DNA of 64,000 bases from positions 62,001 through 126,000 of the forward strand of contig JAJZQX010000003.1 in the NCBI GenBank assembly GCA_021806645.1, read 5' to 3'. This stretch comes from Myxococcales bacterium. GTDB taxonomy: Bacteria; Myxococcota; Myxococcia; Myxococcales; Anaeromyxobacteraceae. The position numbers were made by a program, and so were the translations under genes. Under the pieces are notes generated by a model. The model ran no database searches. It saw nothing but the letters and a program-made list of their open reading frames with translations, and was not told the DNA's origin. Below are positions 5,472 to 12,011 of this stretch, one piece after another. Each line of letters starts with the position of its first letter. Within the stretch, counting starts at the first letter, position 1.

Positions 5472-7223
5472 ATGCTGCGCGAGGCCTTCCAGGACCTGAA
5501 CCGGTTGCGCCAGATCGCGGCGGCGGTGGTCCGGCACGGCTTCGGCGCCTACCTGGCCCGCAGCCGCCTGGCCGAGCAGATCGGCGGCACCCCCGCCGTC
5601 GCCGGCGCCCCCACCAACGGAGAGCGCTCCACCGCGGCCCGCTTCCGCGAGCTGCTGGCCGAGCTCGGCCCCACCTTCATCAAGCTCGGGCAGCTCCTCT
5701 CCACCCGGCGCGACGTGCTCCCGGCCGAGTGGATCAAGGAGTTGGAGACGCTGCAGGACGACTGCCCGCCGCTCCCCATCGCCGACATCCGCCAGGCCCT
5801 GGAGCGCGGCCTGGGGCAGCCCATCGAGGCGGTCTTCGCCGAGCTCGATCCGGTGCCGCTGGCCAGCGCCTCGATCGCCCAGGTCCACCGCGCCCGGACC
5901 CATGGCGGCGAGCAGGTGGTGGTCAAGGTGCAGCGGCCCGACATCCGCTCCCGCATCGAGTCGGACCTGGCGCTCCTCTACTACCTGGCCAGGTTGCTGG
6001 AGGCGGTGGTCGAGGAGACCGGCGTCTACACGCCCACCGCGGTGATCGAGGAGTTCGACCGGACCATCCACGAGGAGCTCGACTTCGAGCACGAGGCGGG
6101 CAACGCGCGCGCCATGCGCGCCGCCAGCGAGGGGCGGGAGCAGATCGTCATCCCGCGCGTCCACGACGCCCTCTCCTCCAGCCAGGTGCTCACGCTCGAC
6201 TACGTCGAGGGGACGCGGCTCAACGACGTCACCACCGAGGGCGGCTTCGACACCGAGCAGATCGCCCGCACCATCATCGAGACGGCCTTCCGCCAGCTCT
6301 TCGAGGACGGGCTGTTCCACGGCGACCCGCACCCGGGCAACATCCTCGTGCAGCCCGGGAACAGGCTGGCGCTCCTCGACTTCGGGCTGGTGGGGCGGCT
6401 CTCCCGCTCGCAGAAGGAGGTGCTGGTAACGCTAATCGTGGCGGTGGCGCTGCGCGACCCCGACTCGATGGCCCGGCTGCTCGACAAGATCGGGGCGCCC
6501 GACTCGCGCGCCCCGGTGGGCGCGCTGCGCGCCGACATCGAGACCATCCTCGACCGCTACCTGGGCCTGCGGCTCGACCAGATCCGGACCGCCACGCTGC
6601 TGGGTGACCTGCTCGACCTGGCGGTGCGCCACAAGATCCGCGTCCCCAAGGAGTACGCGGTGCTGGCCAAGGCGGCCATGACGGTGGAGGGGATCATCCG
6701 CCGGCTCTACCCGACCCTCGACATCCTCGAGGTGGGGCTCCCCTACGCCCGCGAGCTGCTGCTGGCCCGCTTCACGCCGGACGACGCCTCCGGCACCTTC
6801 ATGCGCAGCCTGCTGCGCCTGCAGGGGCTGGCCGAGGACGTGCCGAACCAGCTCTCGCAGGTCCTCGCCGATCTCGAGGGGGGCAAGCTGCGCGTCAACG
6901 TCCGCTCGGCCGACGTCGAGCGGGTCGGCGAGCAGGTTCGAGCGCTCGGCACGCTGGTCTTCCTCGGGCTCATCGCCGCGGCGCTCACCGCCGGAGGGCT
7001 GGTGGTCCTGGCCTTCCGCCCTTCCCCGCTCCCCGGGCTGGCCGCGCTGGCGGCCGCGGCGGTGGTGGCGGGGTTCGCCCTCACCCTCCACCTCGCCCCT
7101 TTCCGGCTCCGCAAGATCTCGATCCGGCGGTTCATCCCTCGTGAGCGGCCAGCACCGTCAGGCTCGCCAGCCACCAGACCTCCAGCGCCGCCGCCAGCAC
7201 CGTCGCCACCGCCGACAGCATGA
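5472..7223 (+). CDS. ABC1/UbiB/AarF-family atypical kinase
   Basis: A 583-residue member of the UbiB/ADCK family, membrane-associated atypical kinases or ATPases that support quinone biosynthesis. Seen in the sequence: the family KxGQ element in [13 protein letters not shown], the Ala-rich nucleotide loop [11 protein letters not shown], the ATP-binding Lys in VVVKVQRP, the catalytic-loop equivalent [12 protein letters not shown], and [10 protein letters not shown] in place of DFG. Two hydrophobic segments near the C-terminus (about residues 495-515 and 520-545) should anchor it in the inner membrane. A Pro-rich tail of about 27 residues extends 92 bp into the convergent neighbour and may be a recent readthrough extension. 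The start is ATG 5472, chosen from the [13 protein letters not shown]-terminus; no strong ribosome site is visible. Confidence 0.93.
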
Positions 7224-8031
7224 GCGCCGGGCCGAGCATCACCAGCATCGGGGCGCTGGTGGCGAACCCGGTGGCCACGCCACCCACCGACTGGACCGCC
7301 GCGCTCGCCACCAGCGAGAGCACGCCGAAGGCGAGCAGCGCCAGCAGGTAGGCGGCCGGCCGGGCCAGCACCCGGCTGGCGGCCTGCAGCACCGCCTCGA
7401 CCGGGCCGTCGCCACGCACCGCGGTCCGGACCAGGGCCGCGTCGGCCACCGCCGCCGCCAGCAGCGCCACCAGCAGGGCCAGCACCAGCGCCGCGGCCAC
7501 CGCCGCAGCCAGGGCCACCCGCCCGCTCCCCATGGCCACCTGGGAGATCTTGAACGCGGCGAGGGCGACTCCCGCCAGGAACAGCTGCCCGGTCCACTCC
7601 AGCACCAGGCCCAGGACGGCGGTCGGGAGCAGGTGCGGCAGTCCCCAGGCCACACCGGTCGCGAAGCGTGGCTCCCGGTCGCCGGCGGGCCCCATGGCGC
7701 CGGCCAGCGCCGGGAGCGCGCCCGCCACGAAGGCGAGCCGCAGGAGCCAGCCTAGCAGCGCGGCGCACGCCGAGAGCCCCACCACCAGCGCCACGAACCG
7801 CGGCTGCACCAGGACCCAGGCGCCCCCGAGCGCCGGCGCCTCCCCGGAGAACGGGGCCAGTTGGTGCGCCCGCCACGCCCCACGCAGGAGGAGCAGCAGC
7901 GCCACGGCCGTCGCCGGCAGCCCGAGCGCCCGCCGGATCAGGGTCGTCAGGAAGCCGACCGGCACCAGCCAGCGCTCGCGCCACAGCCCGGACATCCCCA
8001 GCCGCATCGCCTCGCCCAGCGTGGCCACCAT
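7132..8031 (-). CDS. Multi-pass membrane protein of unknown function
   Basis: About 299 residues, very rich in Ala, Leu and Val, with roughly six predicted membrane segments and basic loops ([20 protein letters not shown] near the N-terminus). I do not recognise a family with a known function. The start is uncertain: ATG 8031 is used here, and an in-frame start at 8070 would add 13 residues ([13 protein letters not shown]). Neither has a clear ribosome site. It runs divergently from lexA, so its promoter may overlap the SOS control region, and its last 92 bp overlap the 3' end of the UbiB-family gene. The reading frame is supported by clean membrane-protein composition on this strand. Confidence 0.7.
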
Positions 8032-8130
8032 GCGGCCACCGTACCGGCCAAGGGGGGTGGGCGGCAACACCGGAGCCGGTTCCGCTCCGGGGGGTGCGTT
8101 CGGGCTCGCGCGCCGGGAACTTGCGGTGGA

Positions 8131-8890: not shown

Positions 8891-10138
8891 CTACCTGGTC
8901 TTCGCTTGGCGGATGTACCGGTCCAGGTCCTCCCGGTCGATCACCGAGAGGATCTCGACGGCGTCCTGCCGCGCCTCGCCGCGCCGGTAGATGAGCCGCA
9001 CGTCGGTGGCCACCCGCACCCGGTAGTAGCCCGGGATCCCGCCCAGCGGCAGCGCGCGCAGGCTCGGGTGGCGATGGTCCTGCGCCAGCAGGAAGGCCTG
9101 CTTCACCGCGGCCCGCTGGATGCGCCGGTCCCAGCCTCGCAGCGAGTCGTAGAACTCCTCGGTGAAGACCGGCAGCAGCCAGCTGGCGGGCGCCTCCTCC
9201 GGCTCCTCCACCGTGTCGGCGGCCGGTCCGGCCGCCACGCCGGGCGCCCCGGTCTCCCGCGCCTCGGCCGCACGCAGCGCCTCCTCGAGCCGGCCCACCT
9301 GCTCGGCCAGCTTCTCGCTCCGTGCTTCGGCCACGTGACGCGCGGTCTCGGCCTCGCGGGCGGCGCCCCTGACCCGCTGGAGCTCGACCGCCTCGTCGGT
9401 CGCCCTGGCCTCGGACAGCTCCGCCTCGGCCCGCCCCCTCGCCTGCCGGGCCTGATCCGCCTGTTCCCTGGCGCGCGCCGCGTCGCCGACGGCCCTGGCC
9501 GCCTCCGCCCGCGCCTCCTTCACCTGGGCCTGCAGCTTCTCGCGAGCCTCGTCGGCCTTCCGCCGCGCCTCCACGGCCCGAGCCTCGGCCCGGGCCAGCT
9601 TCTCCTCCGCCGTTCGCAGCTTCTTGCCGAGCTCGGCCTCGACGTCCACCGCCGCCTCGGGACGACCCCGGCCCACCGCACCGGCTCCGGCGGGACCCGG
9701 CCCGTACCAGTCGGCCGCCAGCTGCTCCAGCGCCGCGGCCCCTCGCGCCCGCACCTGCGGCTGCGGATCCGCCAGCAGCCGCCAGAGGGCGATGGCCAGG
9801 CCGTGGTCGGAGCCCGCCACCTCCAGCAGCTCGTCGGCGGCGACGGCGTCGAGCGGGCTCTGCGCGAAGGCCGGCTCCTTCAGCCCCTGGCGCAGCGCCT
9901 CCAGCACCGGCGCTCGGGACGCCGGCACCGCGCGCACCTCGTCCGCCAGCAGGTCGCACAGCTCGACCTCGGAGAGCCCCTCGGTGCGGAAGCCGGGCGC
10001 CGAGAGCCCCATCGACTTCACCAGCGCCAGCGCCTCCTCGGGCAGGAGCGCGGCGTAGAAGAACGCCGAGAGCGCGTCCCGCGACAGCTCGTGCAGCGGG
10101 GCGTCGCCGACCGGGGGCGGGAGCGGATCGCCGGTCAC
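8891..10138 (-). CDS. Coiled-coil protein with C-terminal RelE/ParE-like domain
   Basis: 415 residues; function unknown. The N-terminal 160 residues are helical with a HEAT-like segment (LLADPQPQVRARGAAALEQL). Residues about 166-292 are a long, charged coiled coil full of Ala, Glu and Arg. After a Pro/Ala linker, residues about 325-410 resemble the RelE/ParE toxin fold: basic helices, then GGIPGYYRVRV, DVRLIYRR, VEILSVIDREDLDRY. No antitoxin gene is adjacent. The start is taken as GTG 10138, which overlaps the upstream stop codon (GTGA) and implies translational coupling; a longer frame to 10324 would run inside the upstream gene. The RelE-like similarity is my reading of motif order and should be confirmed by structure comparison. 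Confidence 0.75.
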   Translation of the reverse strand: MTGDPLPPPVGDAPLHELSRDALSAFFYAALLPEEALALVKSMGLSAPGFRTEGLSEVELCDLLADEVRAVPASRAPVLEALRQGLKEPAFAQSPLDAVAADELLEVAGSDHGLAIALWRLLADPQPQVRARGAAALEQLAADWYGPGPAGAGAVGRGRPEAAVDVEAELGKKLRTAEEKLARAEARAVEARRKADEAREKLQAQVKEARAEAARAVGDAARAREQADQARQARGRAEAELSEARATDEAVELQRVRGAAREAETARHVAEARSEKLAEQVGRLEEALRAAEARETGAPGVAAGPAADTVEEPEEAPASWLLPVFTEEFYDSLRGWDRRIQRAAVKQAFLLAQDHRHPSLRALPLGGIPGYYRVRVATDVRLIYRRGEARQDAVEILSVIDREDLDRYIRQAKTR

Positions 10139-11052
10139 CGGGAGGGGACCGCACCCTCGCGGATCTCGGCCTTGTAATCGACGCCGGCCGGGAGCCGCCA
10201 GGCCTCGTCGATGGGGAGCGCCACCGTGAAGACGGCCAACCGATCGTGGCCCGCGGCGCTCCGCACCGCGGCGGTCAGCTCGAGTTCCATCGACGTCGGA
10301 GGGCGAGGTAGCAGCTCGAGCCACCAGGTGCCGAAGAGGATCGACGGCGGCAGGTCATCGGTGAAGCGCTCCGGGTCGGCCAGCTTGATGGCCGGCTCGC
10401 CGCCGCCCTGCATCCCACCGAAGAGCTGCCCCCTGGCGTCGAGCAACCGGATCGCCAGCTGCCGGAAGGTAACGCCGAGGACGGTGCGGCTGGTGGTCTT
10501 CTCGCCCGAGCCCTCGCGCTCCAGCGAGCGCGGCATGCCCCAGAGGGCGAAGTCGATCCGGAGCCCGGGGCCGCCGCCGTCCGGGTTTGGACCGGCCTGG
10601 ACGGCGAGGATGTCGAGCCGCAGCCCATCGGCCACGGCCGAGGCCACCGGGACGTAGCGGTCGCTCTTCACCAGCGCCACGCGCCCGTCGGCGTACTGCT
10701 GGAACTCGGCGATGGTAGCGCGATCCTTGTCGGGGAGGTTCCCCTTCCTCGCCGCGGTGGCGGCCGCCAGCGCGCTCGGCCGCGGCGCCTCGCGCGGAAA
10801 CCGGTTGCGGAGCGCCGAGCTGGCCTCGAGGTACTGGCGCAGCAGCGCCGCCGCCTCCTCTCGCCACGGCTCGGGTGGCTGCACCGCCATGGTCCGGGCC
10901 ACGGCCGACTTCTCGACGAACTCGCGCTTCACGCGAGCGCGTTCGAGCCGGGCCTCGAAGGACTCGGCCCGGGCGCGCCACGAATCGAGGGAGAACAGGG
11001 CGGCCAGCAGCACCAGGCCGGCCGGGAGGGCGACGAAGAGAAGACGCTTCAT
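10135..11052 (-). CDS. Membrane-anchored protein of unknown function
   Basis: 305 residues. One hydrophobic N-terminal segment (MKRLLFVALPAGLVLLAALFS) followed by a charged helical stretch (about 25-110) and a mixed alpha/beta part (about 130-300). It is therefore probably a periplasmic protein tethered to the inner membrane, or secreted. I recognise no family. It is the first gene of a two-gene unit with the coiled-coil/RelE-like gene, whose start overlaps its stop by four bases. The start ATG at 11052 is natural because it opens the signal-anchor sequence. Confidence 0.75.
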   Translation of the reverse strand: MKRLLFVALPAGLVLLAALFSLDSWRARAESFEARLERARVKREFVEKSAVARTMAVQPPEPWREEAAALLRQYLEASSALRNRFPREAPRPSALAAATAARKGNLPDKDRATIAEFQQYADGRVALVKSDRYVPVASAVADGLRLDILAVQAGPNPDGGGPGLRIDFALWGMPRSLEREGSGEKTTSRTVLGVTFRQLAIRLLDARGQLFGGMQGGGEPAIKLADPERFTDDLPPSILFGTWWLELLPRPPTSMELELTAAVRSAAGHDRLAVFTVALPIDEAWRLPAGVDYKAEIREGAVPSR

Positions 11053-11072: not shown

Positions 11073-12011
11073 TCAGGTGCCGCCGCTGACCAGCGCCTCG
11101 ACGCCCTTCAGGCCGCTGGCGTCGAAGTCGTAGACGTAGGCGCGGGCGCGCCGCACCGGCTCATCGGCGACACGCGACGCCGACCCGGCGCAGAGGATCG
11201 GCGTGGGATGGTCGGCGCCGGGGATGTCGACGCGGAAGGCGCAGTGCCGGTGGCCGTGGAGCACCGCCGCGACCGGCAGCTCCGCCACCAGCCGGATCAC
11301 CTGGTCGGCGTCGGCGAGCGGCATCCTGGCGACCAGCACGTCGGAGGGAATCCGCTCGGGTGGCAGCACCACGTGGTGGTGGAAGGCCAGCACCGTGGCC
11401 TTGCCGGCCTTCTGGTGCTGGCGGCAGAGCTCGCGGGCGCTGCGAAGCTGGTCGGCGCCGATGCGGCCGGCAGTCTGGTGCGGGGTCTCACCGAAGCGGG
11501 CGCTGTCGAGCGCGACCAGCACCACCTCGCCGAGCGGGACCACGTGGGGGTAGGTCGGCGCGGGGCGGCGCATCCCCTTCCCGTCGGGACCGATGGCTCG
11601 CAGGAAGCGCCCGGAGTCGACGGCGTCGGCCGTCCAGACGTCGTGATTGCCCGGCACCACGGTGAGCTTGCCGGCGGCGGCCCACCACCTGAGCATGTCG
11701 GCGGCCCGCTCGAACTCGCGCGGCTCCGACGAAAAAGTCAGGTCCCCGGTGAGCACCAGGTGATCGACGTCCACCTCCCGGAGGGCGTCGAGCAGCCCCT
11801 TGGCCAGCTTGGTCGAGTGGCGCTCGCAGTCCCTGGCGGAGAAGCCGTTCCGAGGGTAACGCGCGCGGTCGGCGAGGTGCAGGTCGCTGATGTGGCCGAT
11901 GCGGACGATGGCGGACTCCTCGGGTGGTGCGAGCCCGAGGATGCTAACGGCCCCTTCCGTCTCGGTCAAACTGGTGACGATGGCCGCCCCAGGCACGCCC
12001 CGAATCGCCAT
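11073..12011 (-). CDS. Calcineurin-like metallophosphoesterase (CpdA/class III phosphodiesterase type)
   Basis: About 312 residues with the full set of dinuclear metal motifs: RIGHISDLHLAD, LVLTGDLTFS, VVPGNHDVW, FHHHV and HGHRHC. The layout resembles class III cyclic-nucleotide phosphodiesterases such as CpdA and Icc, so the substrate may be cAMP or another phosphodiester; the sequence alone does not decide. The domain begins about 35 residues after the ATG at 12011. In-frame starts exist at 12032 (ATG), 12011 (ATG) and 11996 (GTG), none with a good ribosome site. The gene is divergent from lon, and the upstream start would overlap the putative lon promoter. It lies 20 bp upstream of the membrane-anchored gene that follows, so the three leftward genes may form one transcript. 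Confidence 0.85.
   Translation of the reverse strand: MAIRGVPGAAIVTSLTETEGAVSILGLAPPEESAIVRIGHISDLHLADRARYPRNGFSARDCERHSTKLAKGLLDALREVDVDHLVLTGDLTFSSEPREFERAADMLRWWAAAGKLTVVPGNHDVWTADAVDSGRFLRAIGPDGKGMRRPAPTYPHVVPLGEVVLVALDSARFGETPHQTAGRIGADQLRSARELCRQHQKAGKATVLAFHHHVVLPPERIPSDVLVARMPLADADQVIRLVAELPVAAVLHGHRHCAFRVDIPGADHPTPILCAGSASRVADEPVRRARAYVYDFDASGLKGVEALVSGGT

Follow-up and report, generated by a model that had tools for sequence, protein, structure and literature searches.

A conserved myxobacterial coiled-coil protein with a C-terminal RelE/ParE fold and no visible antitoxin: most likely a domesticated RelE-type domain

The window analyzed here, a 64,000-nucleotide stretch of a Myxococcales contig, contains a gene that encodes, in Anaeromyxobacter-like soil bacteria, a three-part protein that ends in a RelE/ParE-fold domain and has no recognizable antitoxin. 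Our analyses suggest that this is most likely not a toxin–antitoxin system, and that a RelE-type RNase (or ribosome- or RNA-binding) domain has probably been domesticated and brought under the control of the protein's own helical and coiled-coil parts. The original prediction had proposed a repurposed toxin fold, and this is now supported as the leading idea. To our knowledge, RelE-fold proteins have been studied almost solely as addiction or defence toxins that are paired with an antitoxin. Strong purifying selection on a conserved, antitoxin-free RelE domain that keeps its active-site positions makes this protein a simple case in which to test if toxin nucleases turn into ordinary regulators, and to ask how a cell keeps such a nuclease safe.

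Results

The open reading frame at 8891–10138 on the minus strand (coding positions 8894–10138 plus the stop codon) starts with GTG and has 415 codons. The predicted coiled-coil protein with a RelE/ParE-like domain was confirmed in all its parts, namely the reading frame, the helix at residues 166–295, and the RelE-like region at residues 320–415 (Table 1). The full-length AlphaFold2 model, for which an alignment of 26 orthologues was the input, reached a pTM of 0.39, and the RelE domain is not confidently packed against the other domains. The helix is charged, and the strongest hydropathy period in the majority of orthologues, of moderate to strong power, is 3.5–3.6, which fits an amphipathic coiled coil; in the window copy this part is alanine-rich (28%). 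The sequence of the 415-residue protein has no long hydrophobic stretch that would suggest a transmembrane segment, and only the partner protein encoded upstream has such a stretch, at its N-terminus. The N-terminal domain, modeled alone, is all-helical with a pTM of 0.82, and a Foldseek search returned no fold match for it in the PDB (best E-value 1.2). The N-terminal part has no match to an antitoxin family in Pfam or NCBIfam. Among the 41 relatives, the N-terminal domain occurs in the fusion protein only, apart from fragments. One genome carries a fragmented second copy of it that is broken by a stop codon (G022:C1:2061966-2062233), apparently a decayed paralogue.

Table 1. Coordinates of the fusion gene, its encoded domains, and the upstream genes in the window.
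Feature	Position	Strand	Evidence
Three-part 415-aa protein with a RelE/ParE-fold domain after a helical domain and a long helix/coiled coil	8891..10138 (including stop)	-	
C-terminal RelE/ParE (BECR-fold) domain, residues 320-415 (~97 aa)	8894..9181	-	AlphaFold2, Foldseek, alignment
Disordered linker, residues ~295-317	9188..9256	-	AlphaFold2 pLDDT <50
Long Ala/Glu/Arg-rich charged helix/coiled coil, residues 166-295	9254..9643	-	AlphaFold2 single helix; hydropathy period ~3.56
N-terminal seven-helix domain, residues 15-145	9704..10096	-	pLDDT ~90 over residues 21-140
Predicted membrane-anchored 305-aa partner, family unknown, facultative neighbour	10135..11052	-	Gene directly upstream
Calcineurin-like metallophosphoesterase, starts the local run of genes on this strand	11073..12011	-	Pfam PF00149, 1.5e-10; gene call

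The membership of the C-terminal domain in the RelE/ParE superfamily is secure, as it is based on the fold, on an alignment score, on profile matches of the orthologues, and on a more distant homologue that passes a curated profile cut-off. In the AlphaFold2 model, the elements β322–325, α327–333, α338–353, β371–377, β380–385, β393–401, and α402–414 follow each other in the order β-α-α-β-β-β-α, which is the RelE topology with its compact antiparallel sheet. The best 43 Foldseek matches of the model in the PDB all belong to the RelE superfamily (RelE/YoeB/YafQ/ParE or Cami1), and an unrelated fold, which would have contradicted the original prediction, is thereby ruled out. The top match was RelJK (RelBE3) of Mycobacterium tuberculosis (E-value 9.8e-4, TM (target) 0.73), and the RelE of Pyrococcus horikoshii, YafQ, YoeB, Escherichia coli RelE, ParE2, and Cami1 (8phj, 8phb) are among the others. 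On sequence level, a global pairwise alignment to E. coli RelE scored 42.5 versus −11 ± 9 for shuffled sequences (maximum 14), which is about 6 SD above. The best E-values of the orthologues were 2.4e-5 for Pfam ParE_toxin, 1.1e-4 for Pfam ParE_like (PF24732), and 0.0016 for NCBIfam RelE_StbE, and PF24732 matched weakly in all 18 aligned orthologues. The window copy by itself remains sub-threshold in Pfam and NCBIfam (E-value about 0.1), and its 13.2 bits with PF24732 lie under the curated cut-off of 24.4, which the homologue L082 just passes with 24.5 bits. A phmmer search of the PDB with the single C-terminal sequence returned nothing, and a C-terminal profile had E. coli RelE as its best, weak PDB matches (E-values 0.087–0.67). 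A PF24732 scan of the own genome gave no match, and its controls gave none either.

The active-site positions fit a RelE-type mRNase. K52, K54, R61, R81, and Y87 of E. coli RelE align with R373, R375, R381, R402, and Y408, so that the equivalents of R61, R81, and Y87 are all present and the basic pair K52/K54 is represented by arginines in the window protein. None of the four arginines varies among 31 orthologues, and Y408 is replaced in these by tryptophan alone, in family f9 only. R45 of E. coli RelE, which also contacts the mRNA, is not kept, and glycine or glutamate is found instead. Cleavage by E. coli RelE has been shown to drop when R61, R81, or Y87 is mutated, and the two lysines to matter little (Neubauer 2009, PMC2807027); the counterparts of these three residues in M. 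tuberculosis RelE1, R65, R85, and Y89, are required for toxicity (PMC12620021). In the RelE domain, 36 of the 97 positions are invariant among 18 sequences, and dN/dS ranges from 0.02 to 0.29, below the values of both other domains in all 10 pairs compared; the RelE domain is the most constrained part of the protein. The kept active-site residues could serve RNA binding without cleavage.

Matches to the protein were found in 31 of the 41 relatives and in 41 of the 145 genomes of the order, and the rest of the phylum sample contributed one weak relative only; the survey covered Myxococcota, with metagenome bins making up many of the relatives. Within this Myxococcota sample, the fusion is confined to one myxobacterial order. 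Almost all of the 32 named GTDB loci are labeled Anaeromyxobacter, Myxococcales, Myxococcaceae, or Deltaproteobacteria, and one is labeled "Proteobacteria". The fusion is conserved across the order, and all complete orthologues that were examined have it at full length. In an orthologue at L055:1487-2788, a stop codon interrupts the RelE domain, which sequencing error or decay may explain. Inheritance is mainly vertical, since the tree has a supported clade for each of the families f1, f7, and f9; most Myxococcaceae have lost or lack the gene. The synteny of the locus is kept within f1, the family of the window genome. The absence from most Myxococcaceae also means that the gene is dispensable at the level of the order. 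An apparent natural loss in two f1 genomes (G017 and G023) was discarded, as lexA is missing there too and the region is probably absent from the bins. A mobile origin was likewise rejected with no match among 72,556 plasmid or 50,697 phage records, and so was an assignment to known defence proteins, as PADLOC matched the coiled coil only.

In the window, lexA lies downstream in convergent orientation at a distance of 31 bp, and the TGA of the partner gene overlaps the GTG start of the fusion gene by 4 nt; the metallophosphoesterase gene precedes the partner gene by about 20 bp. The gene order within f1 is lexA, fusion gene, (partner), metallophosphoesterase, lon. The original prediction had coupled the fusion protein to its membrane-anchored neighbour and expected the pair in close relatives. 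This could be upheld for the fusion gene, but not for the partner, which is present in four of the six Anaeromyxobacteraceae genera (g1, g2, g4, g5), missing at the locus in g3 and g6, and was not found beside the fusion gene in other families; in g6, the phosphoesterase gene directly abuts the fusion gene. The coupling to the membrane protein, for which Pfam and NCBIfam gave no match, is therefore a local operon arrangement and not part of the system. Elsewhere, the neighbours encode Sua5/YrdC (f2), an MBL hydrolase (f9), a rhodanese, a CAAX protease, and an SDR (f7), an SDR (f8), or a HAD or ABC ATPase (f4), and no operon partner common to several families was found. The YrdC/Sua5 gene of f2 and the MBL hydrolase gene of f9 are directly upstream on the same strand, and both are types that include tRNA enzymes; two such families are no pattern. 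An operon link to lexA and the SOS response was rejected, as lexA is convergent, not co-transcribed, and a neighbour in the own family only. Between lexA and a ubiB-like gene, the window encodes a very hydrophobic 312-residue protein without a Pfam match (7132–8070).

The claim that no antitoxin is visible held, as no antitoxin-sized gene adjoins the fusion gene in the window, where its neighbours are lexA and the 305-residue frame. No antitoxin was found among the called neighbours at any locus examined, in the own or in other families, with the neighbours outside the own family called by a simple codon-usage script that could miss a very small or unusual gene. The same genome provides an internal control: it contains two ordinary ParE/RelE toxin genes of 94 and 95 codons (loci L108:1492-2072, minus strand, and L109:1244-1782, plus strand), and each has an upstream antitoxin gene of 99 or 84 codons with a 4-nt overlap. 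A third PF05016 match in this assembly (G000:C14:105223-105438) has an internal stop and is probably a decayed toxin gene, and one relative that has the fusion protein also has a stand-alone 87-residue ParE_like/RelE-like frame (L084:2268-2531, minus strand). We agree with the original prediction that the layout is not a standard one: a type II toxin is a single domain of about 90–100 residues with an adjacent antitoxin gene, and here the domain is fused into 415 residues and no antitoxin gene is adjacent. A fused toxin–antitoxin gene is not indicated either, as Pfam, NCBIfam, and the PDB fold search with the N-terminal domain revealed no recognizable antitoxin domain.

Discussion

The fold, the active-site positions, and the distribution together suggest an antitoxin-independent, vertically inherited multidomain protein whose C-terminal RelE/ParE fold carries the RelE ribonuclease constellation and would target RNA, a view to which we give about an even chance. 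As there is no antitoxin and inheritance follows the pattern of any other chromosomal gene, a toxin fold has apparently turned into a regular cellular part. The RelE domain may still bind RNA in the manner of RelE, with the ribosomal A site as the most likely place, and would probably cleave the bound RNA. The N-terminal domain and the coiled coil, by oligomerization and/or by docking to a target or trigger, would replace the antitoxin in restraining or directing the RelE domain, much as the CARF domain does in Cami1, and the protein would then be a resident, regulated factor that controls translation or RNA, and not an addiction toxin. Several points stand against this explanation, namely the lost R45, the exchange of Tyr408 for tryptophan in f9 and in the SEC-C relatives described below, the arginines in place of K52/K54, and the dispensability in the order. 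Furthermore, an antitoxin-free chromosomal RNase should be costly unless it is autoinhibited. Intramolecular inhibition was not seen in the AlphaFold2 model, which is weak evidence because the inter-domain confidence is low.

A catalytically retired RelE fold that functions as an RNA-, ribosome- (or protein-) binding module, in which RNA is bound by the arginines and an oligomer is built through the coiled coil, is a possibility that we regard as less likely. It would agree with the lack of an antitoxin at every locus examined, with a conservation that extends over the whole domain and not the pocket alone, and with the changes at R45 and, in f9, at the tyrosine; however, throughout the order, and in the distant SEC-C relatives as well, the R61, R81, and stacking aromatic positions are all retained, beyond the needs of RNA binding. 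A disguised toxin–antitoxin system, with the N-terminal domain or the coiled coil as fused antitoxin or the membrane partner as antitoxin, appears improbable. Fused toxin–antitoxin genes do exist in several BECR families (PMC11980606), and in the window genome there is a 4-nt overlap between the partner gene and the start codon, but the N-terminal part matches no antitoxin family or PDB fold and inheritance is vertical and syntenic; the partner was rejected as an antitoxin, as two genera lack it at the locus and it was not found next to the fusion gene in other families. That the domain is a ParE-type module and contacts DNA gyrase instead of RNA is very improbable: the best Pfam matches of the orthologues are ParE_toxin and ParE_like, but the Pfam ParE family also includes E. 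coli RelE and gyrase-inhibiting ParE is described as being without the RelE catalytic residues that are kept here (PMC11980606), the best PDB sequence matches, weak as they are, are E. coli RelE, and the top fold matches are mostly RelE/YoeB/YafQ, with ParE2 appearing only from rank 14 down.

Returning to the proposed domesticated RelE-type domain, the closest described relatives are E. coli K-12 RelE and RelE_StbE, the subcluster of PF05016 with ribosome-dependent mRNases, with which the window domain has in common the fold and the R61, R81, Y87, and K52/K54 positions (the latter as arginines). Unlike E. coli RelE, it forms the end of a longer protein, has no antitoxin gene, is inherited vertically, and has not kept R45. 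Cami1, the CARF-RelE effector of type III CRISPR systems, is likewise a multidomain protein with a RelE domain and no classical antitoxin, and its RelE domain is switched by a sensor in the same polypeptide, with no antitoxin in that role (PMC11229360); unlike in Cami1, the N-terminal domain described here has no match to CARF, the domain that senses cyclic oligoadenylate, and the protein has a coiled coil and a previously undescribed helical domain instead. To PF24732 ParE_like the relation is looser, with weak matches of the orthologues and the window protein below the cut-off. As in ToxM and other multidomain BECR toxins (Gerdes 2025, PMC11980606), the BECR domain is part of a larger protein, but in ToxM the toxin domain is N-terminal, and a transmembrane segment and the antitoxin ToxR go with it (PMC11980606), whereas the RelE domain of the window protein is C-terminal, with no long hydrophobic stretch and no antitoxin gene beside it. 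The 2025 superfamily survey omitted many multidomain BECR proteins without an identifiable antitoxin (PMC11980606), the group to which our protein belongs, and it therefore fills a recognized gap and is not a new class; what is new is the architecture of a known fold.

A coiled coil with a RelE domain and no classical antitoxin may be a wider theme, as a SEC-C zinc motif, a coiled coil, and a C-terminal RelE-like domain are combined in two proteins that other families in this phylum encode (L082:6942-9017, plus strand, 691 residues; L099:1501-3564, minus strand, 688 residues). We tentatively suggest, as a possibility rather than an expectation, that a domesticated, antitoxin-free RelE ribonuclease could act in myxobacteria as a resident, regulated switch of translation that cleaves mRNA or rRNA, with a coiled coil and a new helical sensor domain to hold it in check and direct it, and with the SEC-C version in parallel elsewhere in the phylum. 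Both SEC-C proteins keep the equivalents of R381 and R402 and have tryptophan at the position of Tyr408.
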